In this document: positions 36,585 through 56,417 of the stretch, piece after piece
Layout: the number at the start of each line of letters is the position of its first letter
Position numbering within the stretch: the stretch's first letter is position 1
From: Candidatus Hydrogenedens sp.
GTDB lineage: Bacteria; Hydrogenedentota; Hydrogenedentia; Hydrogenedentales; CAITNO01
Direction of reading: 5' to 3'
Length of the DNA: 64,000 bases
Assembly (NCBI GenBank): GCA_012522755.1
Contig: JAAYJV010000175.1
Coordinates: forward strand, 1 to 64,000
The notes under the pieces: model-generated
The model's input: the letters and a program-made list of their open reading frames with translations, nothing else
Told to the model about the DNA's origin: nothing
Databases searched by the model: none
Program-made: the position numbers and the translations under genes

Positions 36585-37874
36585 ATGACCCGTCAATTAT
36601 TTCTTTTCATTTATATTGTCGTCTTTGTCTTTATGGGAATGCCCGCAGTTTTTGCGGCTGACTGGCCCTGGTATATGGGCCCTGAGAGCGACGGCGTATC
36701 GGCGGAAGATAATCTGATCAGCATTTTTCCCGCTGAAGGCCCGGCGGAATCATGGACTGTGGCTGTGGGCGTCGGATATGGAGGCCCGGCGGTACGGGAT
36801 GGTGAAGTTTATCTTCTTGACAGAGAAGAAGAAGCTCGTGATGTTCTCCGTTGCCTCGATCTGGATACGGGCAAAGAAAAATGGCGGTACAGTTACGATG
36901 CGCCGGGGAGTACGGGACACAGCGGATCACGGACGACCCCGACTGTTGATGAAAAACAAGTCTACAGCGTGGGCCTCCTGGGTGATCTGCTTTGTGTTGA
37001 TCGCAGCAGCCAGGAGGTGGTCTGGCAACGCAATCTGCTCAAAGAATATGATGTGGCACTTCCCGACTGGGGCGTGTCTCAGGCTCCTTTCCTCTATGAA
37101 GACCGGATCATTGTAGCCCCTCAATCACCGAAAGCCTTTGTAGCGGCCTACGACAAAAACACCGGCGAGGTGATCTGGGAAACGCCCGGCGAAGGTGGTC
37201 TGGGCTATTCCTCACCCCGTGTGGTCTCTCTGTGTGGCCAGGATCAGGTCGTGATGATCAGTGCATCGGAAAACAAGGATAAGGGTCGCGTAGAGGGCTT
37301 CTCCGTGGAAGACGGTTCTCTGTTATGGTCCTGGGCTGGCTGGCAGTGCCAGATTCCCATTCCCTGGGTAACACCCTTGCCCGACAACCGCCTTTTCATC
37401 ACAGGAGGCTACAAAGCCGGTTCTGTCATGATACAGCTTGAGAAGGAGGGGGACAAGTATGCTGTCAAAGAACTCTGGAGGCTGGACATGAACAGCTGCG
37501 GAAGCCAGATCCACCCGCCACTGGTCTACAGGGATCATCTGTATGTGGCCAGCAATTCCAATGAAAAAGAGCTGGGCCTCATGTGCGTGGATTACGACGG
37601 TAAGGTATTGTGGAAAACGCGCGATGACCGGAGTCAGCCGAGATTTGAGCGGGGCGGCTTTATTCTGGCCGGAAAAATGATGATTGCTCTCGACGGCAAA
37701 AAAGGAAGTCTGCATCTGGTCGATCCCCTGCCCTTCGGCTATAAAGAACGTTCTCAAGCTCAAGTGCTGGACGGAAACAGGATGTGGGCACCTCTGGCTC
37801 TCTCCGATGGTCGTCTTCTCCTGCGTACCCAGGATATCATGAAATGTCTTGACCTGAGACCAGCGTCTGAGTGA
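36585..37874 (+). CDS. Exported PQQ-like beta-propeller protein 1
   Basis: A 429-residue periplasmic protein. A signal peptide (about 1-24, ending VFAAD) precedes a seven- or eight-bladed propeller of PQQ/BamB type. The blade motif is plain in repeats such as CLDLDTGKEKWRY, AYDKNTGEVIWETP and VDYDGKVLWKT. A clear AAGGAG ribosome-binding site precedes the ATG. There is no CxxCH haem motif, and a quinoprotein active site is not recognisable, so it is probably a scaffold or an uncharacterised binding partner. It opens a run of nine or more genes with short gaps; the next starts 42 bases on. Confidence 0.8.
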   Translation: MTRQLFLFIYIVVFVFMGMPAVFAADWPWYMGPESDGVSAEDNLISIFPAEGPAESWTVAVGVGYGGPAVRDGEVYLLDREEEARDVLRCLDLDTGKEKWRYSYDAPGSTGHSGSRTTPTVDEKQVYSVGLLGDLLCVDRSSQEVVWQRNLLKEYDVALPDWGVSQAPFLYEDRIIVAPQSPKAFVAAYDKNTGEVIWETPGEGGLGYSSPRVVSLCGQDQVVMISASENKDKGRVEGFSVEDGSLLWSWAGWQCQIPIPWVTPLPDNRLFITGGYKAGSVMIQLEKEGDKYAVKELWRLDMNSCGSQIHPPLVYRDHLYVASNSNEKELGLMCVDYDGKVLWKTRDDRSQPRFERGGFILAGKMMIALDGKKGSLHLVDPLPFGYKERSQAQVLDGNRMWAPLALSDGRLLLRTQDIMKCLDLRPASE

Positions 37875-37916
37875 GCTTCTCTTCTTTCAGCAGTCTTTTT
37901 CAGAAAGTAAAACGGA

Positions 37917-39368
37917 GTGATTCGTAACCTCTTCCAACAAGCCGCCAGAATTCTTCTGGTGGCTGTGAGCCTGTCCATATCCGGCTGTTTTCTCTATGGC
38001 TGGATGATGCAGGATTCTTCGCTGGAGATCGCTGTGAGCCTTCCCGGAGGTGACGGACGTCCCGAAAGCGCTGATGAGCTCGAAAAAGAGACGGATCTGG
38101 AAGGCGTATTCACCTGGTTCGCAGATCTGGAGAAGGAGCAGCCCGGTCTGTGGCCCCGTTTCAGAGGGAAAAACTTCGATAACATCTGTCAGGACGGCCC
38201 GCCATTGGCGTCGAAGTGGTCGGAAGACGGCCCCGCGGAATTGTGGTCTGTCGCCCTGGGCGAAGGCTATGCGGCGCCTGTAGTGCAAAACGGACGTGTT
38301 TATCTGCTGGATTATGACGAAGAACTCCATGGTGACGTGGTTCGCTGTTTTTCTCTCGACAACGGCCGGGAACTGTGGCGGCGATTTTATGAAATTTCAG
38401 TGAAACGCAACCACGGCATGTCCCGGACTGTTCCCGCTGTAACGGAATCACTGCTGGTCACGGTAGGTCCCCGTTGTCATGTGCTCTGCCTGGATCCTGA
38501 GAACGGAGACTTCCGCTGGGGTATGGATCTGCAGCGGGAATATGGTGTTACAGAACCGCTCTGGTATACGGGGCAATGCCCGCTCATTGACGATGGTGCC
38601 GTGATTCTGGCTGCAGGCGGACCTGATGCTCTTCTCGTGGCTGTAGATGGCATGACAGGCGATATCCTGTGGAAAACACCCAATCCCCGTGAATGGGCCA
38701 TGTCTCATTCTTCCATCATACCCTTGCATCTGGCCGGTGTGAAAACTTACGTATACTGCACGCTGGGCGCTGTCATCGGCGTGGCTGCTGAGGGGTCTCG
38801 TCGTGGCGAAGTCCTGTGGGAAGTACCCTGGAAAGCCCGGGTCATCGCTCCCTCGGCCGTGCAGGTGGATGAAAAACGGTTTCTCGTGACGGCGGGTTAT
38901 GGCGAAGGCAGTCTCATGATCGCTGTCGTTCAGAATGCCGGAGACTTTGAAGCGGAAGTGCTCTATGCCGTCAGTCCCAAGGAAGGTATTGCCTGCGAAC
39001 AGCAGACTCCCATTTTTTCTCAAGGCCTTCTCTATACGGTCATGCCCAAGGATGCGGCGGCTCTGCGCGAACAATTCGCCTGCTATCATCCTGATGGTCA
39101 GCTGATCTGGTCGAGCGGCCCCGACAATCGTTTCGGGCTGGGACCCTATATGCTCGCCGATAACAAGTTTTTTGTCTTGAGTGATGACGGCGTACTCACC
39201 ATGATGGCCCGGAGTACGGAAAAATTTGAAGCGCTGGATTCCCGACGCGTCCTTACGGGGAATGAAGCCTGGGGACCGCTGGCATTGGCCGGAACACGAA
39301 TGCTCCTTCGAGATTCACAACGACTCATCTGTCTGGAGATGGGCGCTGAGTCCGGGGAGGAGGGATAG
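37917..39368 (+). CDS. PQQ-like beta-propeller lipoprotein 2
   Basis: A 483-residue protein starting at GTG. The signal ends in the lipobox LSISGC (cysteine at about 24), so it is membrane-tethered on the periplasmic side. A short acidic region is followed by the propeller from about 75, with blades such as CFSLDNGRELWRRF, CLDPENGDFRWGM and AVDGMTGDILWKTP. It is a paralogue of the preceding gene. The NHL gene begins three bases after its stop. No haem motif is present. Confidence 0.8.
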   Translation: MIRNLFQQAARILLVAVSLSISGCFLYGWMMQDSSLEIAVSLPGGDGRPESADELEKETDLEGVFTWFADLEKEQPGLWPRFRGKNFDNICQDGPPLASKWSEDGPAELWSVALGEGYAAPVVQNGRVYLLDYDEELHGDVVRCFSLDNGRELWRRFYEISVKRNHGMSRTVPAVTESLLVTVGPRCHVLCLDPENGDFRWGMDLQREYGVTEPLWYTGQCPLIDDGAVILAAGGPDALLVAVDGMTGDILWKTPNPREWAMSHSSIIPLHLAGVKTYVYCTLGAVIGVAAEGSRRGEVLWEVPWKARVIAPSAVQVDEKRFLVTAGYGEGSLMIAVVQNAGDFEAEVLYAVSPKEGIACEQQTPIFSQGLLYTVMPKDAAALREQFACYHPDGQLIWSSGPDNRFGLGPYMLADNKFFVLSDDGVLTMMARSTEKFEALDSRRVLTGNEAWGPLALAGTRMLLRDSQRLICLEMGAESGEEG

Positions 39369-39371
39369 ACC

Positions 39372-40385
39372 ATGGAAGAAAAAGAACATAACAGCCTGTT
39401 GCCCTGGATATCCGGTTTTGCCACTCTTGTATTGGGCGTGGTTGTGGTGGCGCTTTTCATCTCTGACCGCCGACCGGAACCCGGCCGTGCCTATCGTTTT
39501 GATGTCAGTGAATTTCAGGAGAGGTCCCGGGCCGGAGGGGACTACCAAGAAGTTCAGACCATAGCTCTTCCGGCAGAGAAACCCACAGCCGTGGCTTTGG
39601 GTCCGGAAGGAGAGTATTTCGTCGCATCTGAAGGCCGGATCGATCTTCTGAACAATGATGGCCTTCCGGTAAAGACAGTCGCCGTGGAAGGCATGCCCCG
39701 CTGTCTCTTTCGCGATGGAGAAAAGCTCTATGCCTGTGTGGACGATCATATAGAAATCCGCGATCTGGAAGGTGAAATCCTGAGCATCTGGCCGCCTTTT
39801 TCCCGTCACTCCTGGCTCACCTCACTGACACTTCAGGAAGATAATCTCTATGCGGCTGATGCGGCCTTGCGCGCCATACTTCACTATGATCACGAGGGGA
39901 ATTTCCTGAAACGTATCGGTGAAAGGGATCCCGACGATGCAATCCCGGGGATTGTGGTCTCCACGCCTTATCTGGATGTGGCTGTCGATCCCATGGGCCT
40001 CTTCTGGACGACCAATCCCGGGCGACATGGCCTGGAATCCTACCGGAGCAACGGCGAGCCGATCACTTCCTGGTACCGTCCCTCCATGGATATTGATGGC
40101 TTTTGCGGATGCAGCAATCCGGCTCACATCGCTTTTATGGAAAACGGCAACCTCGTCACAGCGGAGCATGGACTCTCCCGTGTCAAAATATACAGCCCTG
40201 ATCATCAGCTGATTGCTCTCGTGGCGGGGCCGGAGAGCTTCGGCGAGAGCCCTGATAAAATGCTCGGGCCCGATCAGAACGGTGCCATCAGTGATCTTGC
40301 TGTGGATGCATCAGGCCGTATCATTGTGCTGGACGGCCGAAAGAGCGAGCTTCGCATTTTTCAAAAGAAGAAAGAAATGTCATGA
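39372..40385 (+). CDS. Membrane-anchored NHL/six-bladed propeller protein
   Basis: A 337-residue protein with one membrane helix near residues 12-32 and an NHL-type propeller outside the membrane (about 55-335). Blades are visible in TAVALGPEGEYFVASEG, LDVAVDPMGLFWTTNPG and SDLAVDASGRIIVLD. A Cys pair (GFCGCS) lies near 241-246. It ends in ATG overlap with the small Cys-rich gene. Function is unknown; the placement suggests a periplasmic partner of the Fe-S proteins encoded next. Confidence 0.75.
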   Translation: MEEKEHNSLLPWISGFATLVLGVVVVALFISDRRPEPGRAYRFDVSEFQERSRAGGDYQEVQTIALPAEKPTAVALGPEGEYFVASEGRIDLLNNDGLPVKTVAVEGMPRCLFRDGEKLYACVDDHIEIRDLEGEILSIWPPFSRHSWLTSLTLQEDNLYAADAALRAILHYDHEGNFLKRIGERDPDDAIPGIVVSTPYLDVAVDPMGLFWTTNPGRHGLESYRSNGEPITSWYRPSMDIDGFCGCSNPAHIAFMENGNLVTAEHGLSRVKIYSPDHQLIALVAGPESFGESPDKMLGPDQNGAISDLAVDASGRIIVLDGRKSELRIFQKKKEMS

Positions 40386-40579
40386 AAAACAAAGGGCTGA
40401 CCCGGCTGGAATTCATCACCACCTCTGTCCGCTGGACTCTGGGTGCCGCTTTGGCTACCCTCGTTTTCTGGCTCTGGCATGATGAACGGCTCACAGCGGC
40501 CTGCGAACAGCCCTGTTCCACCTGTGCCGTGGAAAGACTGTGTGTTTATAAGCGTGAGCAAGAGGAGGAAAGAAGATGA
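40382..40579 (+). CDS. Small membrane protein with Cys4 motif
   Basis: A 65-residue protein: one membrane helix (about 14-32), then C41, C45, C48 and C54 (spacing x3, x2, x5), then a charged tail. The four Cys could bind an Fe-S cluster or zinc on the periplasmic side. Its start overlaps the upstream stop by four bases and its stop overlaps the ferredoxin start by four, so it is surely translated with them. I know of no named family. Confidence 0.8.
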   Translation: MKNKGLTRLEFITTSVRWTLGAALATLVFWLWHDERLTAACEQPCSTCAVERLCVYKREQEEERR

Positions 40580-41127
40580 GCCAGGTGAATCGTCGTGATT
40601 TTCTCCGGGTGGCCGCCGTGGCCGTCGGTTCGGGTGTGGCTCTCAAAGCGAGTCAACCGGGAGCGGAAGCCACAGTATGGCAGATTGACCCGGCCCTTTG
40701 TGTGCAGTGCGGCCGGTGTGCCACCAATTGCGTGATCAATCCTTCTGCGGTGAAATGCGTTCATTCCTATCCCATTTGCGGTTATTGTGACTTGTGCGGC
40801 GCCTACCTGCAACCGGCTGCGAAGACCCGGGATACCGGCGCGGAAAGCCAGCTCTGTCCCATGGCCGCCATCCAGCGCACCCATATCGAAGGGGTCTATT
40901 ATCAATACACCATTGATGAAGAGCTCTGTGTGGGCTGCGGCAAATGCGTGAAGGGCTGTGCCATGTTCGGCAATGGATCCCTCTACCTGCAGGTGAAACG
41001 GGATCTGTGTGTGAACTGCAATGATTGCGCCATTGCCCGGGAATGTCCCTCCGGAGCCATGCACCGGGTCCCCTTGTCTGAATCCTACCTGCTCAAGACC
41101 GATCCGCCCCCGGAGGCGCAGGGATGA
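40576..41127 (+). CDS. Tat-exported four-cluster ferredoxin (NapG-like)
   Basis: A 183-residue Fe-S protein. A twin-arginine signal (RRDFLR at 6-11) marks export to the periplasm in folded form. Cysteines at 42/45/48/52, 61/68/71/74/94, 118/121/124/128 and 145/148/151/157 could ligate four [4Fe-4S] clusters, as in NapG and related electron-transfer proteins. It would carry electrons between a membrane quinol/ferredoxin-type partner and a periplasmic one. The NapH-like gene overlaps its stop by four bases. No napA or other molybdoenzyme is in the window. Confidence 0.9.
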   Translation: MSQVNRRDFLRVAAVAVGSGVALKASQPGAEATVWQIDPALCVQCGRCATNCVINPSAVKCVHSYPICGYCDLCGAYLQPAAKTRDTGAESQLCPMAAIQRTHIEGVYYQYTIDEELCVGCGKCVKGCAMFGNGSLYLQVKRDLCVNCNDCAIARECPSGAMHRVPLSESYLLKTDPPPEAQG

Positions 41128-42407
41128 GAAGATATTACTCCACTCTCCTGGTAAGCCTCCTCGTCCTGATCCCTGCTGTTCACGCTCAGGACGGGGCTTT
41201 CCGCTTTCCCATGCCTGAGTTTGAAAGCGGCTATCATCATCCGGAACAGGTATTCCCCGGAGCGGATCTGACCAATCCCCGGGTGGATGTGCTGGTGCTT
41301 GCAGTGGTTCTGGCTCTCAGCGCCTGGTTTGTACTGCGCCGCCGCAACCGTCGCGAACTTTTGGCTCTCACTGTCTTTTCGCTGGTCTATTTCGGTTTCT
41401 GGCGACAAGGCTGTGTCTGTTCCGTGGGCTCGCTGCAGAATATAGCGGCCTCTCTGGTGGATCCGACCTTTCCCGTACCCTGGGTGGTCCTTCTTTTCTT
41501 TCTGCTTCCCCTTATTGCAGCTCTTTTTTTTGGCCGTGTCTTTTGTGCAGCAGCCTGTCCCCTGGGCGCCATACAGGAACTGTTCACGCTCTGGCCCCTC
41601 CAATTGCCCCGGCCTCTGGATCGGGTGCTCCGCCTTTTTCCCTATTTATATCTGGGTCTTGCTCTCCTATCTGTTTTTCTCGACTCGGGCTTTCTCATCT
41701 GCGCCTACGATCCCTTCATAGGTTTTTTCAGACAGGGTGGCAGTTTCAACATGCTGTTGGCAGGAGCACTTCTGCTCACGGCCGGTATATTTATCGGACG
41801 TCCTTATTGCCGTTATCTCTGTCCCTACGGTGTGCTCCTGAGCTGGATGTCCACCTTCTCCAAATGGCATCTGCGCATTCCCGAGAAGGCCTGTATTCAA
41901 TGCAAGCTCTGCGAAGAAGCCTGCCCCTATGGTGCCATAGATTTTCCGGTTACGGAAGCGGCGCCTCTGACCCGACATGCGGGAGCGCGGCAACTGATGC
42001 TTTTTACGGTACTGACGCCTCTGGTGATTCTTCTCTGTGCCTGGATCGGCATGATGAGTCATGTCTATCTCGCCCGTATCCATTCCGATATACGCCTCAC
42101 GGAACGTATTCTTGCGGAAGAGCGGGGAGAAGTGGAAGGGATGACCATAGAAAGCGAGGCTTTCCGCAGCGGCAATACCACCATTCCCGCCTTGTTGGAA
42201 TCGGCTGGAAAGATTCAGGAGCAGTACAAGCGGGGATCCGCCTGGCTGGGTGCATTCATGGGACTGGTGATCATGGTCATGATCATCCGTCTGTCCCTGG
42301 TTCGACATCGTGTGGACTATGAAGCGAATAAAACACATTGCGTCAGTTGTGCCCGTTGTTTTGCCTATTGTCCTGTAGAAGAGGAGGCTGGCTGTGTTAC
42401 GCAATAA
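41124..42407 (+). CDS. NapH/NosR-like membrane ferredoxin
   Basis: A 427-residue inner-membrane protein with a signal-like start, about five or six helices and Fe-S ligands. The two CxxxCP motifs typical of NapH/NosR/RdxA are present (FCAAACPLGA near 137-146 and YCRYLCPYGV near 230-239). A [4Fe-4S] site CIQCKLCEEACP lies near 257-268, and a second, CVSCARCFAYCP, near the C-terminus. Such proteins accept electrons from quinol or pass them across the membrane to a NapG-type partner. It overlaps the ferredoxin upstream and the anchored propeller downstream (14 bases). Confidence 0.9.
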   Translation: MRRYYSTLLVSLLVLIPAVHAQDGAFRFPMPEFESGYHHPEQVFPGADLTNPRVDVLVLAVVLALSAWFVLRRRNRRELLALTVFSLVYFGFWRQGCVCSVGSLQNIAASLVDPTFPVPWVVLLFFLLPLIAALFFGRVFCAAACPLGAIQELFTLWPLQLPRPLDRVLRLFPYLYLGLALLSVFLDSGFLICAYDPFIGFFRQGGSFNMLLAGALLLTAGIFIGRPYCRYLCPYGVLLSWMSTFSKWHLRIPEKACIQCKLCEEACPYGAIDFPVTEAAPLTRHAGARQLMLFTVLTPLVILLCAWIGMMSHVYLARIHSDIRLTERILAEERGEVEGMTIESEAFRSGNTTIPALLESAGKIQEQYKRGSAWLGAFMGLVIMVMIIRLSLVRHRVDYEANKTHCVSCARCFAYCPVEEEAGCVTQ

Positions 42408-44163
42408 ATCCCATCATTTCATCAAGAAGCCTTTTCTTTTTCAGTTGAGTGCCATTGCAGCGGTGGTGTCGGCTCTCTTTATTCTCATTGTCTCCACACT
42501 CATGATAGCCAACTACATTCAGATCCTGGCACTCGATCCCGTGGACCAACCCGAGTTGCTGGCCCTGCGCGAAGAATATGCGCACAGCTCTGAGATGGAT
42601 CCGGAAATGATCGCCCGTATACGTGCCCTCGACTTCCTCTCGAGAAAGGCCTATTTCACCAGCCAGACCCATCTGATCACAGGCGGGAAACTGCTGTTGG
42701 GTGCCGCCATCGTCTTTCTTGTGTCCATGCGTCTTGCGGGCCGGTGGAATCCCCAGGCTCCCGGACCGCCCCAGGTATCCTTGAGCAAAGGCCATTGGAG
42801 TCGGCAAAGCCTGCTCCGTGAGCTGGTGATTCTCGCAGGGCTGGTGCTCATGATTGTTGCGGCACTGGCTGCTCTCTTCACGCCCTTGAATCTCCCTACA
42901 GCGGAAGAACTCGCTGCAGAGCTGGCCGAAGATGGGGGAGAAGCGGGGGAGACAGTCGCCACCTCTGAGGAAGACATTGTTTTTCCGGACTGGGAAGCTT
43001 TACAGAAGCAATGGCCTTCCTTTCGCGGGCCCGGTGGCTATGGCCGGGCAAGAACAGAGAAGGCGCCTCTGCAATGGGACGGTGAAACAGGAAAAAACAT
43101 CCGCTGGAAAACAGCTCTGGAAGCGCCGGGCTTCAACTCTCCCGTGGTCTGGGGCGACTCTCTCTTTTTCAGCAGTGCCACCGACACGGAACGGAAGATT
43201 CACTGTTACGACACGGAAGAGGGCGAGTTGAAATGGGAGCTGCAACTCCCCGCTTTTCCCGGTACCCCTGATACGCCGCCCAGAGTGAGCGATGACACGG
43301 GCCATGCAGCGCCCACCATGGTTGTTCATTATCCCTTTGTCTATGCCATCTTCGCCAATGGCGATCTTGTGTGCTGCGATTTTTCAGGAGAAGTCGTCTG
43401 GGGTAAAAATCTGGGTGTGCCGGAAAATCACTATGGCCATTCCTCTTCCCTCATTGCCTGGGAAGAGCTGCTCTATATTCAGTTTGATGACAAGAAAAAC
43501 CCGCGGCTCACAGCGCTGAATGCTCAGACGGGGAATGTTGTCTGGGAAACGAAGCGGAAAACAATCTCCTGGGCATCGCCTTCCATCATTCTTCATGAGA
43601 ACCGCCCCCAGCTGATTCTCGCTTCGGAAAAAGACGTGGATTCCTATAACCTCAGTAACGGCGCTCTCTATTGGAGTGTGGAATGTCTTGATGGCGAAGT
43701 GGCGCCCTCGCCCGCCTGGACGAAAGCACATGTCTTTGTCGGTCAGGATTATTCCATTGCCACAGCCATCAAACTGAGCGAAGAAGGAGGAACTCCAGCC
43801 GGAGAGGCCGTGTGGGAATGGGATGACAGCCTCACGGATATTGCCAGTCCTGTCGGTGCTCAGGATTATTTCATCATGGCCACTTCCCGGGGCGAGATTG
43901 TCTGTCTTGATGCCCTCACGGGGGAAGACCACTGGCTGGAAGATTATGATGACGGTTTTCATGCCTCACCCATTTCCGTGGGCGATCTCGTTTACGCTCT
44001 GGAGACCAATGGCGACATGCATATCTTCAAAGCCTCCTCCGATTATGAATTGGTGGCCAGGAACGCTCTGGGTGATAAAGCCTCGGCAACTCCTGCTTTC
44101 GTGAACAACCGCATCTACCTGCGCACCCATGCTTATCTCTGGTGTGTGGAAGAAGGATCATGA
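42394..44163 (+). CDS. Membrane-anchored PQQ-like beta-propeller protein 3
   Basis: A 589-residue protein starting at GTG inside the NapH-like gene. The first 160 residues hold three hydrophobic helices (about 19-45, 95-112, 137-158). The rest is a propeller exposed to the periplasm, with blades such as CYDTEEGELKWEL, ALNAQTGNVVWETK and CLDALTGEDHWLE. The fusion of a membrane domain with a propeller is unusual. The NuoF-like fusion gene overlaps its stop by four bases. No haem motif is seen. Confidence 0.8.
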   Translation: MLRNKSHHFIKKPFLFQLSAIAAVVSALFILIVSTLMIANYIQILALDPVDQPELLALREEYAHSSEMDPEMIARIRALDFLSRKAYFTSQTHLITGGKLLLGAAIVFLVSMRLAGRWNPQAPGPPQVSLSKGHWSRQSLLRELVILAGLVLMIVAALAALFTPLNLPTAEELAAELAEDGGEAGETVATSEEDIVFPDWEALQKQWPSFRGPGGYGRARTEKAPLQWDGETGKNIRWKTALEAPGFNSPVVWGDSLFFSSATDTERKIHCYDTEEGELKWELQLPAFPGTPDTPPRVSDDTGHAAPTMVVHYPFVYAIFANGDLVCCDFSGEVVWGKNLGVPENHYGHSSSLIAWEELLYIQFDDKKNPRLTALNAQTGNVVWETKRKTISWASPSIILHENRPQLILASEKDVDSYNLSNGALYWSVECLDGEVAPSPAWTKAHVFVGQDYSIATAIKLSEEGGTPAGEAVWEWDDSLTDIASPVGAQDYFIMATSRGEIVCLDALTGEDHWLEDYDDGFHASPISVGDLVYALETNGDMHIFKASSDYELVARNALGDKASATPAFVNNRIYLRTHAYLWCVEEGS

Positions 44164-46538
44164 CCATGTCTTTTGATCCTGCAAAAGTGGAAGCCATTCT
44201 GGAGCGGACCGGCCGCCGTGCCGATGCCCTCATTGCCGTGCTCCATGCCCTGCAGGAAGAATATCAGTATTTGCCTGAGGAGGCGCTGCAATATCTCTGT
44301 GCCCACTCGGAAATGACCCCGGCCGCTGTGGAAAGCGTGGTCTCCTTTTTCCCGGGCTTCCGCCGGAAACCTACAGGGGAACACACCATCAGTGTTTGTG
44401 ATGGCACAGCCTGTCATGTCAAAGGCGCGGCTGCAATTTATGATGCCGTGGCTGAAAGTCTGGCTCTCCCGCCAGGCGAGGATACTGATGCGGAAGGACG
44501 TTTCACTCTGCGGAAAGTAGCCTGTCTCGGCTGCTGCACCCTGGCTCCGGCTGTGCAGATTGACGAGGTCACCTATGGCCATGTCCAGTCTGACGGTATT
44601 GACGCCATGCTCCAGGACTTTTTGAAGAATGCAGCCAATCCTCAGCAGCGTGAGACAGCACCGCCTTCTGAATCTGATGGCACTTCCGGAGAAATCCGCA
44701 TCGGTCTCGGCTCCTGTTGTGTTGCCGGGGGCAGCGAGAAGGTGCGGGCCGCCCTGCAGAAGACTTTGCATGACCTCGGTTCCACCATCCCGGTCAAAAA
44801 TGTGAGCTGTGTCGGGGTCTGTCACCAGACGCCTCTTCTGGAAATCATTCTGCCGGGCAAAGCTCCGGCCCTCTACGCCAAAGTGCAGGCTGAAGATGTG
44901 GAGGCCATTGTGGCCAGGCACATCCCCGCACAAAAAAAACTCTTCGCCTGGAAACGAAAAACAGCCCGCTGGTTTGAAGGACTCTATGCCTCCGACAGTG
45001 TCAGAAAACCTCAGGACTATGCCCTGGATGTGGAAGGGGAGTCCATGGCTGCTTTTCTCAAAGGGCAATGCCGTCTGGCTACGGAATATTGCGGCGAAAT
45101 CAATCCTCTCGATCTGGACGAATATATCAGACTGGGCGGCTTCAGCGCTTTTGAGAGCTGTCTCAATGCTCTGAAGAGTGATTCTGATGGAAACGGGACT
45201 GTGCATGAAAAGATCATAAAGGAGATCGAGGCCAGCGGCTTGCGTGGCCGCGGGGGAGCCGGTTTCCCTGTAGCGAAAAAATGGCGGGTTGTCCGTGCGG
45301 CCCGGAGCGAGAGAAAATATGTCATCTGCAACGGTGACGAAGGAGACCCCGGTGCGTTCATGGATCGTATGATCCTGGAGTCTTATCCTTTCCGGGTCAT
45401 AGAAGGCATGCTCATCGCCGCACTGGCCACAGATGGGCTGGAAGGTATTTTCTATATCCGTGCCGAGTACCCGCTGGCTGTGGAACGGGTCACAGAGGCC
45501 CTGAAGCGTTGCCGTGAAGCCGGGTATCTGGGCGACAGCATCTGCGACTCTTCTTTTTCATTTCAGATCCGCGTTGTTCAGGGCGCCGGTGCCTTTATCT
45601 GCGGTGAGGAGACGGCGCTCATCGCCTCCGTGGAAGGCCGACGGGGTACCCCTTCCTTGCGCCCGCCCTACCCGGCGCAAAAGGGAGTCTATGGCAGCCC
45701 GACCCTGGTGAACAATACGGAAACGCTGGCTCTCGTTCCCTGGATCATGCGCCACGGTGCCGAGGCCTTTTCAAAGCTGGGCACGGAGAAAAGCGCCGGA
45801 ACCAAAGTCTTTTCTCTGGCCGGAAAGATTGTTCGCGGCGGATTGATAGAAGTGCCCATGGGCATGAGTGTGGGTGCCATTGTGGAAGATATCGGCGGCG
45901 GCGTGGCTGATGGCCGCAAACTGAAGGCCGTGCAGATCGGAGGCCCCTCGGGTGGCTGTATCCCCGCATCGCTGGCCCATACTCCTGTGGATTATGAAGC
46001 GCTGACGGAAGCGGGCGCCATGATGGGTTCCGGCGGCTTTGTCGTTCTCGATGAAAGCGACTGCATGGTCGAAATGACCCAATACTTTCTCTCCTTCACC
46101 CAGTTGGAAAGCTGTGGTAAATGCACGCCCTGCCGGGTAGGCTCCAAACGGATGCTGGAAATCCTGGATCGTCTTTGTGCCGGTGAAGGAAAAGCAGGCG
46201 ATATTGAACAGCTCCTGGAACTGGCCGACATCATGAAAAGCATGAGCCTCTGCGGTCTGGGCAAAACAGCGCCCAATCCCGTCTTGACGGCACTGCGCTA
46301 TTTCAGAGAGGAATTCGAAGCCCATATCAACGGAAAGTGTCCGGCCGGAAAGTGCAAGGCTCTCATCCATTATTACATTACCGATGATTGTATAGGCTGT
46401 ACAAAATGCGCTCAGGTATGCCCTTCCGGCGCCATCGCAATGAAGCCCTATGAAGTGCATCACATCGATGACGACTTGTGTGTGCGCTGCGGCGAATGCT
46501 ATCAGATCTGTCCTGTTGATTCAGTGAAGGTGGAATAA
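44160..46538 (+). CDS. NuoE-Trx-NuoF-ferredoxin fusion flavoprotein
   Basis: A 792-residue cytoplasmic protein holding the NAD(P)H-oxidising unit of complex I/[FeFe]-hydrogenase type. Order: NuoE-like [2Fe-2S] domain (1-160; C80, C85, C122, C125), a second thioredoxin-like [2Fe-2S] domain (about 178-255; C186/187, C217, C221), NuoF (about 340-720; FMN site GLRGRGGAGFP at 361-371, NGDEGDPGAFMDR at 391-403, [4Fe-4S] Cys 652/655/658/698), and a 2x[4Fe-4S] ferredoxin tail (C744-754 and C774-784). This equals Thermotoga-type HydC plus HydB in one chain. It is the NADH module of the electron-bifurcating family. The start at 44160 overlaps the propeller stop. The C-terminal H-cluster enzyme is not encoded nearby. 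Confidence 0.92.
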   Translation: MTMSFDPAKVEAILERTGRRADALIAVLHALQEEYQYLPEEALQYLCAHSEMTPAAVESVVSFFPGFRRKPTGEHTISVCDGTACHVKGAAAIYDAVAESLALPPGEDTDAEGRFTLRKVACLGCCTLAPAVQIDEVTYGHVQSDGIDAMLQDFLKNAANPQQRETAPPSESDGTSGEIRIGLGSCCVAGGSEKVRAALQKTLHDLGSTIPVKNVSCVGVCHQTPLLEIILPGKAPALYAKVQAEDVEAIVARHIPAQKKLFAWKRKTARWFEGLYASDSVRKPQDYALDVEGESMAAFLKGQCRLATEYCGEINPLDLDEYIRLGGFSAFESCLNALKSDSDGNGTVHEKIIKEIEASGLRGRGGAGFPVAKKWRVVRAARSERKYVICNGDEGDPGAFMDRMILESYPFRVIEGMLIAALATDGLEGIFYIRAEYPLAVERVTEALKRCREAGYLGDSICDSSFSFQIRVVQGAGAFICGEETALIASVEGRRGTPSLRPPYPAQKGVYGSPTLVNNTETLALVPWIMRHGAEAFSKLGTEKSAGTKVFSLAGKIVRGGLIEVPMGMSVGAIVEDIGGGVADGRKLKAVQIGGPSGGCIPASLAHTPVDYEALTEAGAMMGSGGFVVLDESDCMVEMTQYFLSFTQLESCGKCTPCRVGSKRMLEILDRLCAGEGKAGDIEQLLELADIMKSMSLCGLGKTAPNPVLTALRYFREEFEAHINGKCPAGKCKALIHYYITDDCIGCTKCAQVCPSGAIAMKPYEVHHIDDDLCVRCGECYQICPVDSVKVE

Positions 46539-46542
46539 GTTT

Positions 46543-48012
46543 ATGATTCACATGCAAATAAACGGACAATCGGTGGAAGTGCCTGAAGGCACGACCCTGC
46601 TTCAGGCGGCGCAAAAGACCGGTGCCCATATTCCCACCCTCTGCCATGCCCCCGGGCTGCCTGCACAGACTTCCTGCATGGTCTGTGTAGTGGAAGAACG
46701 CAGGACAGGCCGACTTGTGCCCTCCTGTTCCGTGCTGGCTGAAGAGGGCCAGGATATCTGGACCCACACAAAAGAAGTGCATGAAGCCCGGCGGCGTATT
46801 CTCGAACTGCTCTTGAGCGAGCATGCCGGTGATTGTGAGGCCCCTTGCCGTCGTCTCTGTCCGGCCGGGTTGAATATTCCTCTCATGCTCCGCTGTATCG
46901 CCCGGGGCGAAGATGCGGAAGCGGCCCGGATCGCTGCAGCGGATCTGACGCTTCCCCTCGTCCTGGGCTGGGTATGTCACCATCCCTGCGAGGCGGGGTG
47001 CAGGCGCAAGGTTCATGACAGCTCTGTAGCCATACGGGAGATGCATCGTCAGGCGGCGGATCATTTTCTGCAGAAAGAAGAAAGCTATTTTTCTGTCACT
47101 GCTTCCCAATTTCCCGGAGTCGCTGTTGTCGGTTCCGGACCGGCTGGACTGGCCGCAGCCTGGACCTTGAATCAATGGGGTTTTGACGTGCATGTCTTTG
47201 AAAAAGAAGCCCGTCCCGGCGGCATGCTCCGTGCCTACAGTGAAGAAGAATTACCCGGCCATGTTCTGGATCGGGAACTGGCGGCTTATACCCGGGCCGG
47301 AATACACTTTCACTGTAATACCCATGTGGACCATGACCGGCTCCAGGCCTTGCGCCGGGACTATAAAGCTCTTGTTGTCGCCTGCAGAGAACTCGGGGAA
47401 GGACGCAACGATCTGCTGTGCGCTTTCGATGAGAAATATCCTGTCCGCTCTGTACGTTCCGGAAAAGAGGCCGCCTTCCAGGTGCTCAAAGACTTCAACC
47501 GGGATGAGATCCCCGGCGACTCGGCCTATGATTCACGGCTGGGACGGATCACAAAAGAGGACATTGAGCACTACATGGAAAACAGGGTGTCCCCTGAAGT
47601 GATGGAACGGGGACGAACTCCCGATGATGCGAAAGCCGAAGCGGAACGTTGTCTTCATTGCGATTGTCATGCGCCCCTGTCCTGCAAGCTCCGGCATTAT
47701 GCCACGGAGTATGAAGCCCGTCCCCAGGCCTGGCGGGGTACAGCACGACCGCCTGTGCCCGGGCTTGCCAAAGACGGCACCCTTTTATTTGATGCCGGTA
47801 AATGCATAAAATGTGGGTTGTGTATAGAAGTCGCGAAAAGTCACGGCGATTTGCCCGGATTGTCCTTTACAGGCCGGGGCTTTGATACCAGGGTTACAGT
47901 GCCTTTCGATGCGCCCCTGTTGAAAGCACTTTCCCGTTCAGCATCGGAATGCGTATCTGTCTGTCCCACGGGCGCCCTGGCTTTTTCGGATCAGGAGGAG
48001 ATGTTGTCATGA
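46543..48012 (+). CDS. 2Fe-2S/GltD-like flavoprotein lacking a pyridine-nucleotide domain
   Basis: A 489-residue flavoprotein. A plant-type [2Fe-2S] domain (1-80; C34, C45, C48, C62) is fused to a GltD/DPD-type helical Fe-S domain (C98, C102, C106; C145, C149, C153) and an FAD-binding fold (VVGSGPAGLAAA at 195-206, FEKEARPGGMLR at 219-230). The NADPH-binding Rossmann domain expected after it is missing: only about 80 residues separate it from a Cys-rich tail (CLHCDC-x5-CK near 370-381, then CIKCGLC near 421-427 and CVSVCP near 470-474). It therefore probably receives electrons from the NuoF-like partner and not from NAD(P)H itself. It starts four bases after that gene. Confidence 0.88.
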   Translation: MIHMQINGQSVEVPEGTTLLQAAQKTGAHIPTLCHAPGLPAQTSCMVCVVEERRTGRLVPSCSVLAEEGQDIWTHTKEVHEARRRILELLLSEHAGDCEAPCRRLCPAGLNIPLMLRCIARGEDAEAARIAAADLTLPLVLGWVCHHPCEAGCRRKVHDSSVAIREMHRQAADHFLQKEESYFSVTASQFPGVAVVGSGPAGLAAAWTLNQWGFDVHVFEKEARPGGMLRAYSEEELPGHVLDRELAAYTRAGIHFHCNTHVDHDRLQALRRDYKALVVACRELGEGRNDLLCAFDEKYPVRSVRSGKEAAFQVLKDFNRDEIPGDSAYDSRLGRITKEDIEHYMENRVSPEVMERGRTPDDAKAEAERCLHCDCHAPLSCKLRHYATEYEARPQAWRGTARPPVPGLAKDGTLLFDAGKCIKCGLCIEVAKSHGDLPGLSFTGRGFDTRVTVPFDAPLLKALSRSASECVSVCPTGALAFSDQEEMLS

Positions 48013-49310
48013 AAATAGTTCATATTGTCCCCGGCAGTGGCGGAACGTTTTATTGCCAGAACTGCCTGCGTGATACAGCCATTGTCCGGGCGTTGCGCGA
48101 AGAAGGACATGATGTGCTGCTCACACCCATGTACCTGCCTCTCTTTGCCGATGATGCAACTCTGGCTGAGGAAGTGCCTGTTTTCTTCGGAGGTATCAAC
48201 GTCTATCTTCAGCAGCGTTTCCCCATTTTCCGGAAGACACCCGCCTGGCTCGACCGGCTTTTTGATGCCTCCTGGTTGCTCCGTATGGCGGCGAAACAGG
48301 AAAGCTCTACCAGCGCCCGGGATCTGGGACCCATGACCCTGTCCATGTTGCAGGGCGATGCCGGCAACCAGTCCAAGGAAGTGGCCCGGCTCATTCATTG
48401 GCTCAAAGAGCAGGAAAAGCCCGACGCTGTTCATTTGTCCAATGCCCTCTTGCTGGGCCTGGCGCCACAGTTGAAGGCTGGTCTGGACTGTCCTGTTTTC
48501 TGTACGCTGCAGGATGAAGACACCTGGGTTGACGTCATGCCGGCCGATGAGGGCGAAGCCTGTTGGCAAGCCATGGCCCGGGCCGGTGAATCGGTGGATG
48601 CTTTCGTCGCCGTCAGTCAGTGGTATGCCGATAAAGTCCGGGAAAAGATGGCCATCCCTCCTGAAAAACTGAAGATGATTTATCTCGGCGTGGACAATGA
48701 CACATCACAAGCGGCGGAACTCCCCTTTGATCCCCCTGTGATCGGCTATCTCTCCAGGCTCGCACCGGGTCAGGGACTGGATCTGCTGATTGATGCTTTT
48801 ATCGCCCTGAAAAAAAAGCCCGAATTCGCAACGCTCCGACTCCGTGCGACAGGGGGTATTACATCGGCTTATCGCAAGTTCATTGAAGATATGAAAAAGA
48901 AACTCCGCCGCGAAAATATGCTGGACGATGTGGACTTTCTCGAAGACTTCGGCAAAGAGGAGCGGCGGAAGTTTCTGCGTTCACTCACCTTGCTCTCTGT
49001 TCCCGCTCCTGAGGGTGAGGCTTTCGGTGCTTTCATTCTCGAAGCACTGGCCAACGGCGTACCTGTAGTGCAACCGGCTGCCGGTGCTTTCCCCGAAGTG
49101 GTGCAGGAGACAGGAGGTGGTATTATCTACGATCCTCAGCAACCCGGTGCTTATGAAGAGGCGCTGGCGTCACTCTTGTCAGATCCTGAAAAAGCCATCG
49201 CTCTGGGCGAGACGGGACGGAATGCCGTTGAAAGCCGTTTTAATATACAGACCATGGCTCGCAGCCTGGCCAGCCTCTATGAGGAATGTCTGGACAGAGC
49301 CGCTGACTGA
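48009..49310 (+). CDS. Family 4 glycosyltransferase
   Basis: A 433-residue GT-B glycosyltransferase. The first domain starts KIVHIVPGSGGTFYCQNC (residues 2-19). The donor domain has IGYLSRLAPGQGLDLLIDAF near 243-262, and SVPAPEGEAFGAFILEALANG near 326-346 carries the E-x7-E motif, as separated glutamates. Its start overlaps the flavoprotein stop by four bases, so it is part of the same operon; why a glycosyltransferase sits in a redox operon is unclear. It could glycosylate one of the exported proteins or a surface polymer. Confidence 0.8.
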   Translation: MKIVHIVPGSGGTFYCQNCLRDTAIVRALREEGHDVLLTPMYLPLFADDATLAEEVPVFFGGINVYLQQRFPIFRKTPAWLDRLFDASWLLRMAAKQESSTSARDLGPMTLSMLQGDAGNQSKEVARLIHWLKEQEKPDAVHLSNALLLGLAPQLKAGLDCPVFCTLQDEDTWVDVMPADEGEACWQAMARAGESVDAFVAVSQWYADKVREKMAIPPEKLKMIYLGVDNDTSQAAELPFDPPVIGYLSRLAPGQGLDLLIDAFIALKKKPEFATLRLRATGGITSAYRKFIEDMKKKLRRENMLDDVDFLEDFGKEERRKFLRSLTLLSVPAPEGEAFGAFILEALANGVPVVQPAAGAFPEVVQETGGGIIYDPQQPGAYEEALASLLSDPEKAIALGETGRNAVESRFNIQTMARSLASLYEECLDRAAD

Positions 49311-49374
49311 TCGAGCCGGGAACTGCTCTGAAGGAGTACACAACTCTTCCGGCTGAAAACAGATGGAGGAATCC

Positions 49375-50742
49375 ATGAAAAAAACAATCTCCTCATTTTC
49401 CTTTGTAATCTTTCTGATCGCCCTGACGCTGCTCTTTCTCATGATCAAGAAAAAAGAACTGGAACAGCAGCCTCCGACGCCAGAACCCGTACAGGCGAGC
49501 GAGGCCGCCCCGGAATGGATCCCCGAGGAGGAAGACAATACCTCCGCTCTGGCTCCCGCACCGACGCATCTCAGCGCATTTCCCGATCTTCATATCCCCG
49601 GGCCGGAAGATTATGTCTGGGAAGACAACTTCTGGAACAGTTATCACGGGCCCTCTGAACTCACAGGTCACGCCGATTTCCTGCTGCCCGCCAGTCTTTC
49701 GCCGCTCTGGCAGATCCAGGCGGAAGCGGCCGTCTATGGAACGCCTGTATATGCGGAAGGCCTTCTTTTCTTTGCGAATATCCAGGGTGGTGTATTTGCC
49801 GTGACCCGGGAGGGAGACATTCTTTGGAATGTCCGTGTCATCAGCGGCGAACGAAGTGACGGAACGACACGCTATGCTTCCTTTGAAGCGCCCATGCTTT
49901 ATCTGGAGGATCGCATCTTCGCCTGCGATGACAGCGGGCTTGTGGTGGCATTCATCGCTGAAACAGGCGAAGAGATCTGGCGCCGCTTTCTGGATATTTC
50001 CGTGCTGGGCTCGCCCAACTATCAGATCAGGACGGGGGAAGACGGTTCCTCCGAAATATTCATCTATATCATTGATCAGGCTTCGGGTGCCTTGCACTGT
50101 CTGAAGGGCGAGACGGGCGAAGTGGCCTGGGTATCTTCCACAGAAGTGGGCCGTTGCGATGCCACCCCCGGCGTGAGCGGCGACTTTGTCGTCTTCGGAA
50201 GCTGTGCCTCGGCACTCCATGTTTTTTCCAGTCGCACAGGCGAGCTCTTGCATGATCTGGAGCTGGGCAATGATTCGCAGGTGGCCTCCGGCGTGGCGCT
50301 CGTTGACGGTAAAGGTCTTTCCGGAAGCAGAGACGGCAGTCTGGTTCTCATGGATCTCAATGAGGGGAAACGCGTCTGGACAACGGAACTGTCCCGGGAC
50401 GAAATCTTTTCCACACCGGCCGTCTCCGGAAACTGGGTTGTCGTCGGTGACGAAGACGGCAATCTCTTCGCCGTGCATCTGGTCACGGGCGAGATCATCT
50501 GGAAGACTCAGCTGGATGGGCCCATACAATCACCTGTTATTCTTCGGGACAAGGTGGCTGTTTCCGTGGACGGGCTGCTCTATCTGCTGCGACTGGATAC
50601 CGGTGAAACCTTGTGGTCTTATGAACTGAGCGATGAAATCACTTCGCCCTGTGTGGCTGGCAAGGCCATCGTGGTGGGCAGCAGTGATGCAACGGTTACA
50701 GCCTTTGCCGGAAATGATGAAGGGGATTCCTTTCATGACTGA
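49375..50742 (+). CDS. Membrane-anchored PQQ-like beta-propeller protein 4
   Basis: A 455-residue protein. An N-terminal helix (about 3-22, SSFSFVIFLIALTLLFLMI) anchors it; an acidic Pro-rich linker and then a propeller follow on the periplasmic side. Blades include AFIAETGEEIWRRF, CLKGETGEVAWVSS, LMDLNEGKRVWTTE and RLDTGETLWSYE. The start at 49375 is preceded by GGAGG; the ATG at 49363 overlaps that site. The ABC ATPase gene overlaps its 3' end by eight bases, so the propeller and the exporter are coupled. Confidence 0.85.
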   Translation: MKKTISSFSFVIFLIALTLLFLMIKKKELEQQPPTPEPVQASEAAPEWIPEEEDNTSALAPAPTHLSAFPDLHIPGPEDYVWEDNFWNSYHGPSELTGHADFLLPASLSPLWQIQAEAAVYGTPVYAEGLLFFANIQGGVFAVTREGDILWNVRVISGERSDGTTRYASFEAPMLYLEDRIFACDDSGLVVAFIAETGEEIWRRFLDISVLGSPNYQIRTGEDGSSEIFIYIIDQASGALHCLKGETGEVAWVSSTEVGRCDATPGVSGDFVVFGSCASALHVFSSRTGELLHDLELGNDSQVASGVALVDGKGLSGSRDGSLVLMDLNEGKRVWTTELSRDEIFSTPAVSGNWVVVGDEDGNLFAVHLVTGEIIWKTQLDGPIQSPVILRDKVAVSVDGLLYLLRLDTGETLWSYELSDEITSPCVAGKAIVVGSSDATVTAFAGNDEGDSFHD

Positions 50743-51427
50743 ACAGCATCCGCCTTTTCTCATGGAATTGAAGAGCCTGACCCGTTCCTATGCGGGTACA
50801 GCGGGGGATATTGACGTGCTCAAAGGCGTGGATTTGAAGATCCAGGCGGGTGAAAGTATTGCCATCGTCGGGCCCTCGGGATGCGGGAAGAGCACACTCC
50901 TCAATTGCATGGGCGGGCTGGACAGGCCCGATTCCGGAGAGATCCTTTTCAAAGGTCAATCCCTTTCCGGATACAGCGCAAAAGAACTGGCTCGCTTCAG
51001 AAATAAAGAAGTCGCCTTTGTCCTTCAGCAGCATCATTTATTGCCGCAATGCACCGTACTGGAAAATGTGCTCATCCCGACGCTGGTCGCCCGGGAGCGG
51101 GGGGGAGCTTACGAGCGGGCTCTTGCACTTCTGGAAGAGGTGGGACTGGGCGAGCGGCTTCATCACCGGCCCCAGGAACTCTCCGGCGGCGAATGTCAGC
51201 GTGTCGCCGTGGTGCGCGCTTTGATCAACAGGCCCGGACTGCTTCTTGCCGATGAGCCCACGGGATCGTTGAACGAAGAGAACGCTTTCATGCTCGTCGA
51301 TCTTCTGCTCCACTTGAATCGTGAACAGGGCATGGCGCTGGTTATGGTCACCCATTCACTGGCCCTGGCCGAGCGTCTCAGTCGGCTCTGTCGCCTCCAT
51401 GACGGGAAGCTGGAAGAGCAGCCATGA
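50735..51427 (+). CDS. LolD/MacB-type ABC transporter ATPase
   Basis: A 230-residue nucleotide-binding subunit. Walker A is GPSGCGKST (near 46-54), the signature ELSGGECQRVAVVRAL lies near 148-163, and Walker B LLLADEPTGSL near 170-180. It powers a MacB/LolCDE-like mechanotransmission exporter at the inner membrane together with the FtsX-type protein encoded next. The start (MTEQHPPF) is chosen for its AAGGGG site and its overlap with the upstream propeller; the longer frame from 50633 lies wholly inside that gene. Confidence 0.9.
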   Translation: MTEQHPPFLMELKSLTRSYAGTAGDIDVLKGVDLKIQAGESIAIVGPSGCGKSTLLNCMGGLDRPDSGEILFKGQSLSGYSAKELARFRNKEVAFVLQQHHLLPQCTVLENVLIPTLVARERGGAYERALALLEEVGLGERLHHRPQELSGGECQRVAVVRALINRPGLLLADEPTGSLNEENAFMLVDLLLHLNREQGMALVMVTHSLALAERLSRLCRLHDGKLEEQP

Positions 51428-54400: not shown

Positions 54401-54690
54401 AGCGGCGCGGAGAATGGGCCATGCTTCAGGCTCTCGGCTTCAGACAGCGTGATCTGGCACTGCTTCTGACGGTGGAATTGGTCATGATCCTGCTCGTGGC
54501 CGGACTTCTCGGAGGAGGAGCCTCTCTCATTGCCCTCCTGCCTTCTTTGCTGCTTTCCTCCACACTCCCTCCGGTGTCACAGCAGTTTCTGGGCTTTTTG
54601 CTCATGCTGTGCAGTGGCGCATTGAGCAGTGTGGCCGCTCTGGCCCTCACAAGATCCCGCTCTGTGCTGGATGATTTGCGCCGTGAATAA
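51424..54690 (+). CDS. FtsX-family ABC exporter permease, large
   Basis: A 1088-residue permease, much longer than MacB or LolC/E (about 400-650). It appears to have two FtsX units, each with a periplasmic domain: an N-terminal helix (about 20-40), a domain to about 490, helices near 495-690, a middle helix pair, a second domain (about 750-970) and terminal helices near 975-1070. This matches the ten-helix YbbP-type layout. It overlaps the ATPase by four bases. The usual substrates are lipoproteins, lipids or envelope-active proteins; the linked propeller may be a periplasmic partner or cargo. Substrate unknown. Confidence 0.85.
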   Translation: MRKLSIPWVAWRGLCYHWRIHSGVFLGILLSTAIVTGALILGDSARHTLHSIALSRLAGASYACYYPNRYLKDGLAEKLGHELHSTPAAVLRLQAMALPSGGDSATQTRVNRVQVLGVDESFWLITGMEPPRWKPQEALINERLARALSLKEGDRLALRIVKPSLMALDAPLSPGSDETATRVQLKVRGIIADEEGGRFNLSNEQRSPYNIFVPRHWLQDLVDLEEKSNLFLAGEDWDEALLRRRMAEQWRLQDVGLTLRPITGRGFQLESDRIFLEEEVVTAALSVDGARASLAYLVNSISTEEYSTPYSFALANDVQADLKDDEAVVNEWLAEKLHIQIGDSITVRWFVVTPANEFVEHSRLFQVKTIRPMAELEKERDAMPLFPGLSDVESCTDWDVGMPMDEEALKDKDNEAYWDEWRQTPKLWVTLPAGLEMWGSRFGSYTTVRFPPEYEDEQVLEEEIRSKIFPEALGLRFMPVREEALQSVAEALDLGYLFLGMSFFLIISALLLSVLLFKFSLQQRAGEMGTLLALGFPGSRLLGLFALEALILALAGGGAGMLAGTGYARLLLLGLSRAWAGAVAGTEILFYLKPLTLFTGWLAGTGLPLLAVFRILQRQCSLQAGELLHRDFSQERSLPAAPVKSQKGWILALIGLLTGLTVMGTVFILEPPSMAPWFFITGTWLLTVGIFSWRHFLKHYGLADKTASFSLKHLALLQLTRRPGRNAAAVALLACGIFLALSVISMQEDLQKHAAERWSGTGGFELFGESTAALSEAPLYAGITAQPLRYRQGDDAGCLNLNRAASPHIYGVDPELMKKAGAFDSKRGEENIWTLLQQPLADGAIPALVGDRDTVLWGLNARAHPVKGDTLLYNDESGNEIMLRLVGALPMRLSVFQGSLLLSLENFTSLFPSESGFRAFLFDLDGIESEEAIRLLQQKEGKAGMHVETSLQRLEAFYTVERAYLHMFLLLGALGVTLGALGLGVITARSRIERRGEWAMLQALGFRQRDLALLLTVELVMILLVAGLLGGGASLIALLPSLLLSSTLPPVSQQFLGFLLMLCSGALSSVAALALTRSRSVLDDLRRE

Positions 54691-54785: not shown

Positions 54786-54981
54786 TTCGGTGAAAATGTA
54801 GTAAAATAGTGATGGCAGGCGAAGTATGCCTCATGGCCGGACTTTTTAACAGGATGTCTGTGTTTTCTTTCCTGATTATGTAATATTCTTGCAACGTTTT
54901 CTGATCGTGGGTTGTACTGTACCATAGTGAACAACTGAATCCTGTTTAATTTATCTTTAACATGTTGTGAATGATACACTT

Positions 54982-56229: not shown

Positions 56230-56417
56230 TTGCCTGACGACGGCTCCCTCAGGCCTTCTTTGCGCATTTCTTTTGTCCTCCCCGGGCTTTCCGTGTAAAG
56301 TAGAGGAGTGTACCCCTATACGGGCTTTTCCCGGTCACAGCGCCAATTGCAGGCATATCAGGGTCTATTCACTGTAATCGACATCCAGTCATATCAGAAT
56401 CAGAGAAACAGCTATTC

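Follow-up and report, generated by a model that had tools for sequence, protein, structure and literature searches.

A run of genes in the genome of a Candidatus Hydrogenedens species joins NADH-type flavoproteins to NapGH-like iron-sulfur proteins and β-propellers, which raises the question of whether these parts form a single electron transfer system and, if so, between which partners. The window, that is, the whole stretch of 64,000 nucleotides analysed here, lies on contig 149 of the source genome (4.0 Mb, 95% complete). Thirteen genes are found on its plus strand at 36585-54690, in the order P1, P2, NHL, C4, G, H, P3, BfuCB, BfuA, GT, P4, ABCa and ABCp. A sequence-only reading of this DNA had counted thirteen genes in 36585-50742; that interval holds 11, the number 13 being reached with the pair of ABC transporter genes downstream (50633/50735-54690), which, to judge from sequence, does belong to the unit. 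Four-base overlaps, previously ascribed to most junctions, are found at NHL/C4, C4/G, G/H and ABCa/ABCp, and, with GT begun at 48009 as in its relatives, also at BfuA/GT; with this start, and with ABCa starting at 50735, the remaining junctions are gaps of 3-52 nt or overlaps of 8-22 nt. Promoter- and terminator-like matches are at most slightly above those in shuffled sequence, and no transcript ends are claimed. The parts named in the same reading (a NuoE-Trx-NuoF-Fd fusion, a 2Fe-2S/GltD-like protein, a Tat ferredoxin, a NapH-like protein and a 65-residue Cys4 protein) are all present as described, and 36585-54690 indeed encodes no hydrogenase, molybdoenzyme, complex I membrane arm or haem-binding CxxCH. 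In place of the four propellers reported there are five, the PQQ/BamB-type proteins P1, P2, P3 and P4 and one of NHL type; the reading also missed that a glycosyltransferase and an ABC exporter are part of the system.

The window alone shows a single strain, and in one metagenome-assembled genome unrelated operons might have come to lie side by side by chance. This explanation is refuted by the observation of much the same gene order in about ten phyla and in independent assemblies, including those of cultured Draconibacterium, Perlabentimonas and Rhodopirellula, and it retains next to no probability; the arrangement is not strain-specific. The nearest named relative is Candidatus Hydrogenedentes bacterium ADurb.Bin170, with an H protein 78-79% identical, and H is found in 42 of 68 genomes of the class. 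With each species represented by one genome, a scan gave at least 546 confirmed H-like loci, a number that may include more distant NapH-like loci, and the best 80 of these are from Bacteroidota, Chlorobiota, Kiritimatiellota, Planctomycetota, Hydrogenedentota, KSB1, Aminicenantes, Marinimicrobia, Spirochaetales, Verrucomicrobia and others. In loci outside Hydrogenedentota with enough flanking DNA, the genes of the redox part are nearly always present (NHL 55/56, P3 52/53, BfuCB 45/47, P2 47/51, BfuA 38/42), with GT at 21/35 and ABCa at 18/36. The order varies in some Planctomycetota (L103, L127, L130), where P4-GT-ABC lie ahead of P2, and in Bacteroidota, where P4 lies ahead of GT. Among 297 Bacteroidota, sampled by an even draw, a P2 profile matched Draconibacterium only, so that occurrence in this phylum is patchy, and the viral contigs and plasmids searched held no relatives. 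A search across the loci for an additional recurring gene or terminal enzyme returned C4 alone; no known terminal enzyme that might have been lost here is encoded in the homologous loci. Furthermore, no co-occurrence with [FeFe] hydrogenase, haem-copper oxidase-type genes or Rnf was found in the 68 genomes (Fisher p = 0.6, 0.5 and 0.8, respectively). One contig labelled Nitrospiraceae bacterium OTbin.67 (JAACEL010000126.1, L073) matches a contig from the Hydrogenedentota class (G045:C213) in length and gene order, and its label looks wrong.

The cytoplasmic part of the cluster is centered on BfuCB (44142..46538, likely start ATG 44160), a fusion of a NuoE-type protein (BfuC), a Trx-like domain and a NuoF-type protein with two [4Fe-4S] clusters (BfuB), in which PF01512 (51K/FMN), PF10589 (NADH_4Fe-4S), a C-terminal Fer4 domain and PF01257 (NuoE-type) all score above the cut-off. 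The solved structures nearest to it are those of bifurcating enzymes (9bov, 9n5u, Stn 8oh5 and HydB 7q4v), and what had been termed NADH-type flavoproteins is more specifically an electron-bifurcating Bfu core. The NuoE cluster residues C86, C91, C128 and C132 are invariant in 15 relatives (the BfuC part lies outside the alignment with 9bov and 9n5u), as are C658/661/664/704, H728/C733/C738, C750-760 and C780-790, and the ligand cysteines of the BfuB part align with both 9bov and 9n5u. From knowledge of HydABC, we take these residues to belong to C1, B1, B2 and B3/B4. In the Trx-like domain, where a B5 [2Fe-2S] cluster would be expected, C192, C193, C223 and C227 are also invariant, but their spacing differs from that in the solved homologues. 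The core domains and cluster ligands found in BfuCB are those by which the Bfu family is defined (PMC9304861), and the flavoprotein half is thus placed by sequence in the electron-bifurcating Bfu (HydABC/Stn) family, as a clade of its own with a predicted bifurcating activity. In fact, BfuC is fused to BfuB in all 83 operon loci with a readable BfuB, compared with none of six other BfuB from Hydrogenedentota, and in a phylogenetic tree the operon BfuCB sequences form a clade with 100/100 support, outside which fall the genome's four other BfuB. This clade is largely grouped by phylum, as expected of an old unit that has mostly been kept vertically. The genome's own [FeFe] hydrogenase copies are encoded elsewhere, outside the cluster; the BfuB of such [FeFe]-hydrogenase clusters (L151, L154 and L155, comprising C41 of this genome and relatives) is about 1030 aa long with a GltD/DPD-like C-terminal extension, and resembles the published sub-type I (PMC11406978).

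Compared with the Stn/Nfn-Bfu enzymes (StnABC of Sporomusa ovata, 8oh5; 9bov; 9n5u), with which the cluster shares the BfuBC-type core, BfuA (46543..48012) is reduced. It retains an N-terminal [2Fe-2S] domain, a DPD/GltD-type FeS domain and a truncated FAD-type fold, but matches 9bov_A only at 4-285 and 551-671, the two ends of the GltD-like region; the NADPH-binding domain is missing in all 17 aligned sequences. The FdhF-like C-terminus is likewise absent, and no H-cluster, molybdopterin or other catalytic domain follows the FAD-type fold. The C-terminal ferredoxin motif holds a single [4Fe-4S] cluster instead of two: C421, C424, C427 and C474 are kept in 17/17 aligned sequences, and the ligands of the second cluster are not. 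In Stn, Lys170 is a cluster ligand that is important for activity (PMC10482914); the corresponding residue of BfuA is His168, invariant in the same 17 sequences. Because the H-cluster, NADPH and Mo domains are all lacking, the third substrate must be a partner protein, and because the same reduced layout is found across 17 relatives, the sequences portray BfuA as a conserved electron adaptor without a substrate site of its own, rather than as a decayed gene.

H (41124..42407) is a NapH-like membrane polyferredoxin and the candidate for that partner. It aligns with E. coli NapH across the membrane module, at 25% identity and with every one of the 12 NapH cysteines in place, the Fer4_5 profile PF12801 matches at 1e-14, and both the CX3CP motifs and the C-terminal [4Fe-4S] ligands are present. 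Its score against the NCBIfam NapH subfamily (TIGR02163) is 44 bits, compared with a cut-off of 213 bits. It is longer than NapH by a signal peptide and two transmembrane helices, and contains three cysteines (C97, C99 and C193) that are absent from the NapH set and invariant in 41 relatives. Lysine and arginine make up 42% of the first inner loop, and in the likely topology the Fer4 clusters would be cytoplasmic and C97, C99 and C193 periplasmic. The model of H is moderately confident (pLDDT 80), and a fold search with it against the PDB gave no structural match. The chemistry of the CX3CP motifs in NapH, NosR and PceC is unsettled, and the motifs may act as redox thiols instead of holding clusters (PMC5928378); NapH is held to hand electrons to periplasmic NapG (PMC5928378, PMC8238504). 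The counterpart of the latter is G (40576..41127), a Tat-exported, NapG-like ferredoxin with a twin-arginine signal and 17 invariant cysteines, enough for about four [4Fe-4S] clusters. Immediately upstream, C4 (40382..40579) encodes a small protein of 65 aa with a Tat-like, RRxF-like signal or transmembrane segment and the pattern CX3-6CX2CX5-7C; it had no match in a family-profile search, and stands at the same place in 72/99 loci. The resemblance to the NapGH systems of E. coli and Wolinella thus extends to the Tat-exported multi-cluster partner of H, whereas the cluster differs in the cytoplasmic NAD/ferredoxin partner and in the absence of NapA, NapB and NapC from both the cluster and its recurring neighbours.

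On the periplasmic side, the membrane-anchored BamB-like protein P2 (37917..39368) is the best conserved of the propellers, with 40-58% identity across phyla. Its model is confident (pLDDT 91), and its fold matches BamB or tetrathionate hydrolase and is shared with PQQ dehydrogenases, from all of which P2 differs in having about 11-16% identity and invariant funnel residues of its own. There are 38 polar loop positions kept at 85% or more, 31 of which are on one face (that of the blade-joining loops, the face being assigned by the usual layout of the fold), and the funnel carries the invariant motifs KRNHGxSRT, WYTGQCP, MxHSS, EQQTP and RFGxGP. This one-faced polar conservation suggests that a ligand or an active site lies there, and P2 looks like the carrier of such a site rather than only a scaffold, whereas the sequence-only reading had offered the propellers as terminal or scaffold. 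P2 contains no recognisable redox cofactor. PqqC is absent from this genome, from the six other genomes searched and from all but 2/68 class genomes (G023 and G024 serving as positive controls), which makes a PQQ enzyme unlikely; PQQ dehydrogenases were accordingly rejected as the default reading of P1-P4, although the cell might take up PQQ from outside. The TM-anchored NHL-type propeller (39372..40385; NHL, 2e-8) contains a GCCNP motif that is nearly invariant in an alignment of 63 sequences and reads GCSNP in the window (GFCGCSNP, residues 243-250). P3 (42394..44163; PQQ_2, 5e-22) combines about three TM helices, predicted from sequence, with a C-terminal PQQ-type propeller, and P1 (36585..37874; PQQ_2, 6e-21) and P4 (49363..50742; PQQ_2, 4e-35) are a secreted PQQ/BamB-type propeller of 429 aa and a TM-anchored BamB-like propeller, respectively; all three are assigned to the cluster by synteny.

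GT (48009..49310), whose ORF opens at 47949 and whose start is set by homology, is a GT4-type glycosyltransferase; near the N-terminus it has a conserved CxxC (FYCxNCxRD, ORF residues 34-42), which to our knowledge is unusual for this type. ABCa (50735..51427, in an ORF from 50633) is an ATPase of the LolD/YbbA/MacB class that scores 254.8 bits for LolD, compared with an equivalog cut-off of 307.75 bits, and ABCp (51424..54690) is a permease of 1088 aa assigned by its FtsX/MacB domains and synteny. GT orthologues are found in 42/68 class genomes, in 39 of which H is also present; 23 genomes have neither, and each gene occurs alone in three (Fisher p = 7e-12, uncorrected for phylogeny). In one of the three genomes with GT and no H, a BfuA fragment adjoins GT at a contig end (L164). 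Where the cluster is split, P1 goes with GT, P4 and the transporter: P1-GT-P4-ABCa-ABCp (G046, G047) or P1-GT-P4 (G041) lie on another large contig, with the redox genes still in the genome. This co-occurrence even where the genes are unlinked is the strongest sign that GT and the exporter belong to the system and serve the same function as the redox genes, although they may have a function of their own and be tied to the redox genes by common regulation only.

Taken together, we give somewhat better than an even chance to the reading in which the 13 genes constitute one conserved system, a Bfu-type core wired across the inner membrane to an assembly of P2, NHL and P3. The soluble core (FMN and Fe-S, with sites for NAD(H) and ferredoxin) would dock via the stripped-down BfuA onto H; NADH and reduced ferredoxin would feed BfuCB, or receive electrons from it, and BfuA would relay electrons to the clusters of H on the cytoplasmic side. 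From there they would cross the membrane via the CX3CP region of H to its periplasmic cysteine site and pass on to G and C4, which would serve the NHL/P3/P2 assembly, the final reaction being most likely in the P2 funnel. An envelope module (P1, P4, the cytoplasmic GT and the LolD/MacB-class exporter) would make or place something that the redox module needs. The electron flow between NAD(P)H/ferredoxin and the periplasm suggested earlier thus survives as the best reading, with NAD(H) in place of NAD(P)H. NADH and reduced ferredoxin would be used together (confurcation), pushing electrons outward. Flow out of NADH and ferredoxin is more likely than flow inward, given the outward direction of NapGH and the lack of any visible hydride acceptor in the periplasm.

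The possible inward flow would begin with the oxidation, at P2, of a low-potential periplasmic donor such as an aldehyde or a sugar, whose electrons would then be bifurcated between NAD+ and ferredoxin. Consistent with this, Bfu enzymes are reversible and most of their third substrates are near -400 mV (PMC9304861), flavinylated NapH-like proteins also accompany extracytosolic alcohol oxidases (PMC8238504), and the cationic invariant pocket of P2 could take an anionic substrate or cofactor; however, P2 has no evident cofactor to accept a hydride and PQQ synthesis is absent, and such a route is judged distinctly improbable. A different end point is implied if H reduces quinone, so that the complex is a non-pumping or weakly coupled NADH and ferredoxin:menaquinone oxidoreductase with structural propellers. 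NapH is a menaquinol dehydrogenase (PMC5928378) and a quinone-linked form, Nuo-Bfu, has been proposed within the Bfu family (PMC9304861), but this explanation, which we regard as unlikely, leaves the periplasmic G and C4, the three extra cysteines of H and the invariant funnel of P2 without a role.

A similarly low probability is assigned to an envelope-biogenesis machine, in which a glycosylated envelope component is assembled or positioned by the exporter, BamB-like propellers and GT, with the redox arm as the source of reductant for a single step (insertion of a cluster, thiol or cofactor). In agreement with this, the propeller folds are nearest to BamB, the ATPase is LolD-like, GT co-occurs with H, P1-GT-P4-ABC can form an operon of their own and none of the loci contains a terminal oxidoreductase. 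An electron-bifurcating core would, however, be a costly source of reductant for a maturation step, and the most conserved propeller is P2 rather than the BamB-like P4. It is a long shot that GT and the exporter make an undescribed redox cofactor or carrier, glycosylated and anionic, and bring it to the cationic P2 funnel, which would make the system a new class of cofactor-loaded propeller oxidoreductase, driven across the membrane by an electron-bifurcating core.

The building blocks of the cluster (Bfu, NapGH and BamB-like propellers) are known, and the combination, which the sequence-only reading did not recognise as a described complex, appears to be undescribed. Known Bfu cores either work with soluble third substrates or belong to pumping complexes that have been proposed (Nuo-Bfu and Mbh-Bfu). 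In comparison with these, the cluster lacks the H-cluster or NiFe subunit of the [FeFe]- and [NiFe]-hydrogenase BfuABC and the NuoA-D and H-N membrane and Q modules of Nuo-Bfu and complex I, and differs from Stn/Nfn-Bfu in the fusion of BfuC to BfuB and in its membrane and periplasmic partners. It shares the BfuBC domains, the cluster ligands and access to a third substrate via BfuA with Bfu Types 1-4, none of which is described as coupled to a NapGH-like wire or to propellers, and 17 BfuB clades have been left without function (PMC9304861). NosR and PceC resemble H in the membrane module with two CX3CP motifs and, as proposed for H, in delivering electrons to extracytosolic enzymes (PMC8238504), but the FMN-binding domain and ApbE are absent from H and the cluster. 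An analogy with the Nos system (propeller, NapGH and ABC transporter) was dropped because no NosZ-, NosD- or NosL-type gene is present and the ABC class is different. Rnf and Nqr are functional analogues only, as ferredoxin/NADH-linked transmembrane redox chains; the cluster contains none of their subunits, and RnfC is encoded elsewhere in the genome. In the literature, including two surveys (PMC9304861 and PMC11406978, supplements aside), of which the latter deals with BfuABC of the [FeFe] hydrogenases in Hydrogenedentota, no description was found of the combination of Bfu, NapGH and propellers, nor of a clade with BfuC fused to BfuB, of BfuA as an adaptor, of the additional cysteines in H or of the close partnership with GT and the exporter. 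If the proposed arrangement is true, a Bfu core placed on a periplasmic, haem-free chain would extend electron bifurcation to the cell envelope and give roles to PQQ-like propeller proteins of no known function. The spread over mostly uncultured lineages together with cultured genera makes this unexplained respiratory-type system directly testable in isolates.

Two further features of the window lie outside the cluster. Directly adjoining ABCp on the downstream side, 54967-63172 encodes an RND efflux adaptor and two RND permeases; an RND adaptor adjoins ABCp also in one other genome (G013, L161), and this was not seen in other phyla. Upstream, on the minus strand at 19698-23576, a protein of 1293 aa combines PKD domains with a PhoPQ-related domain (PF10142).
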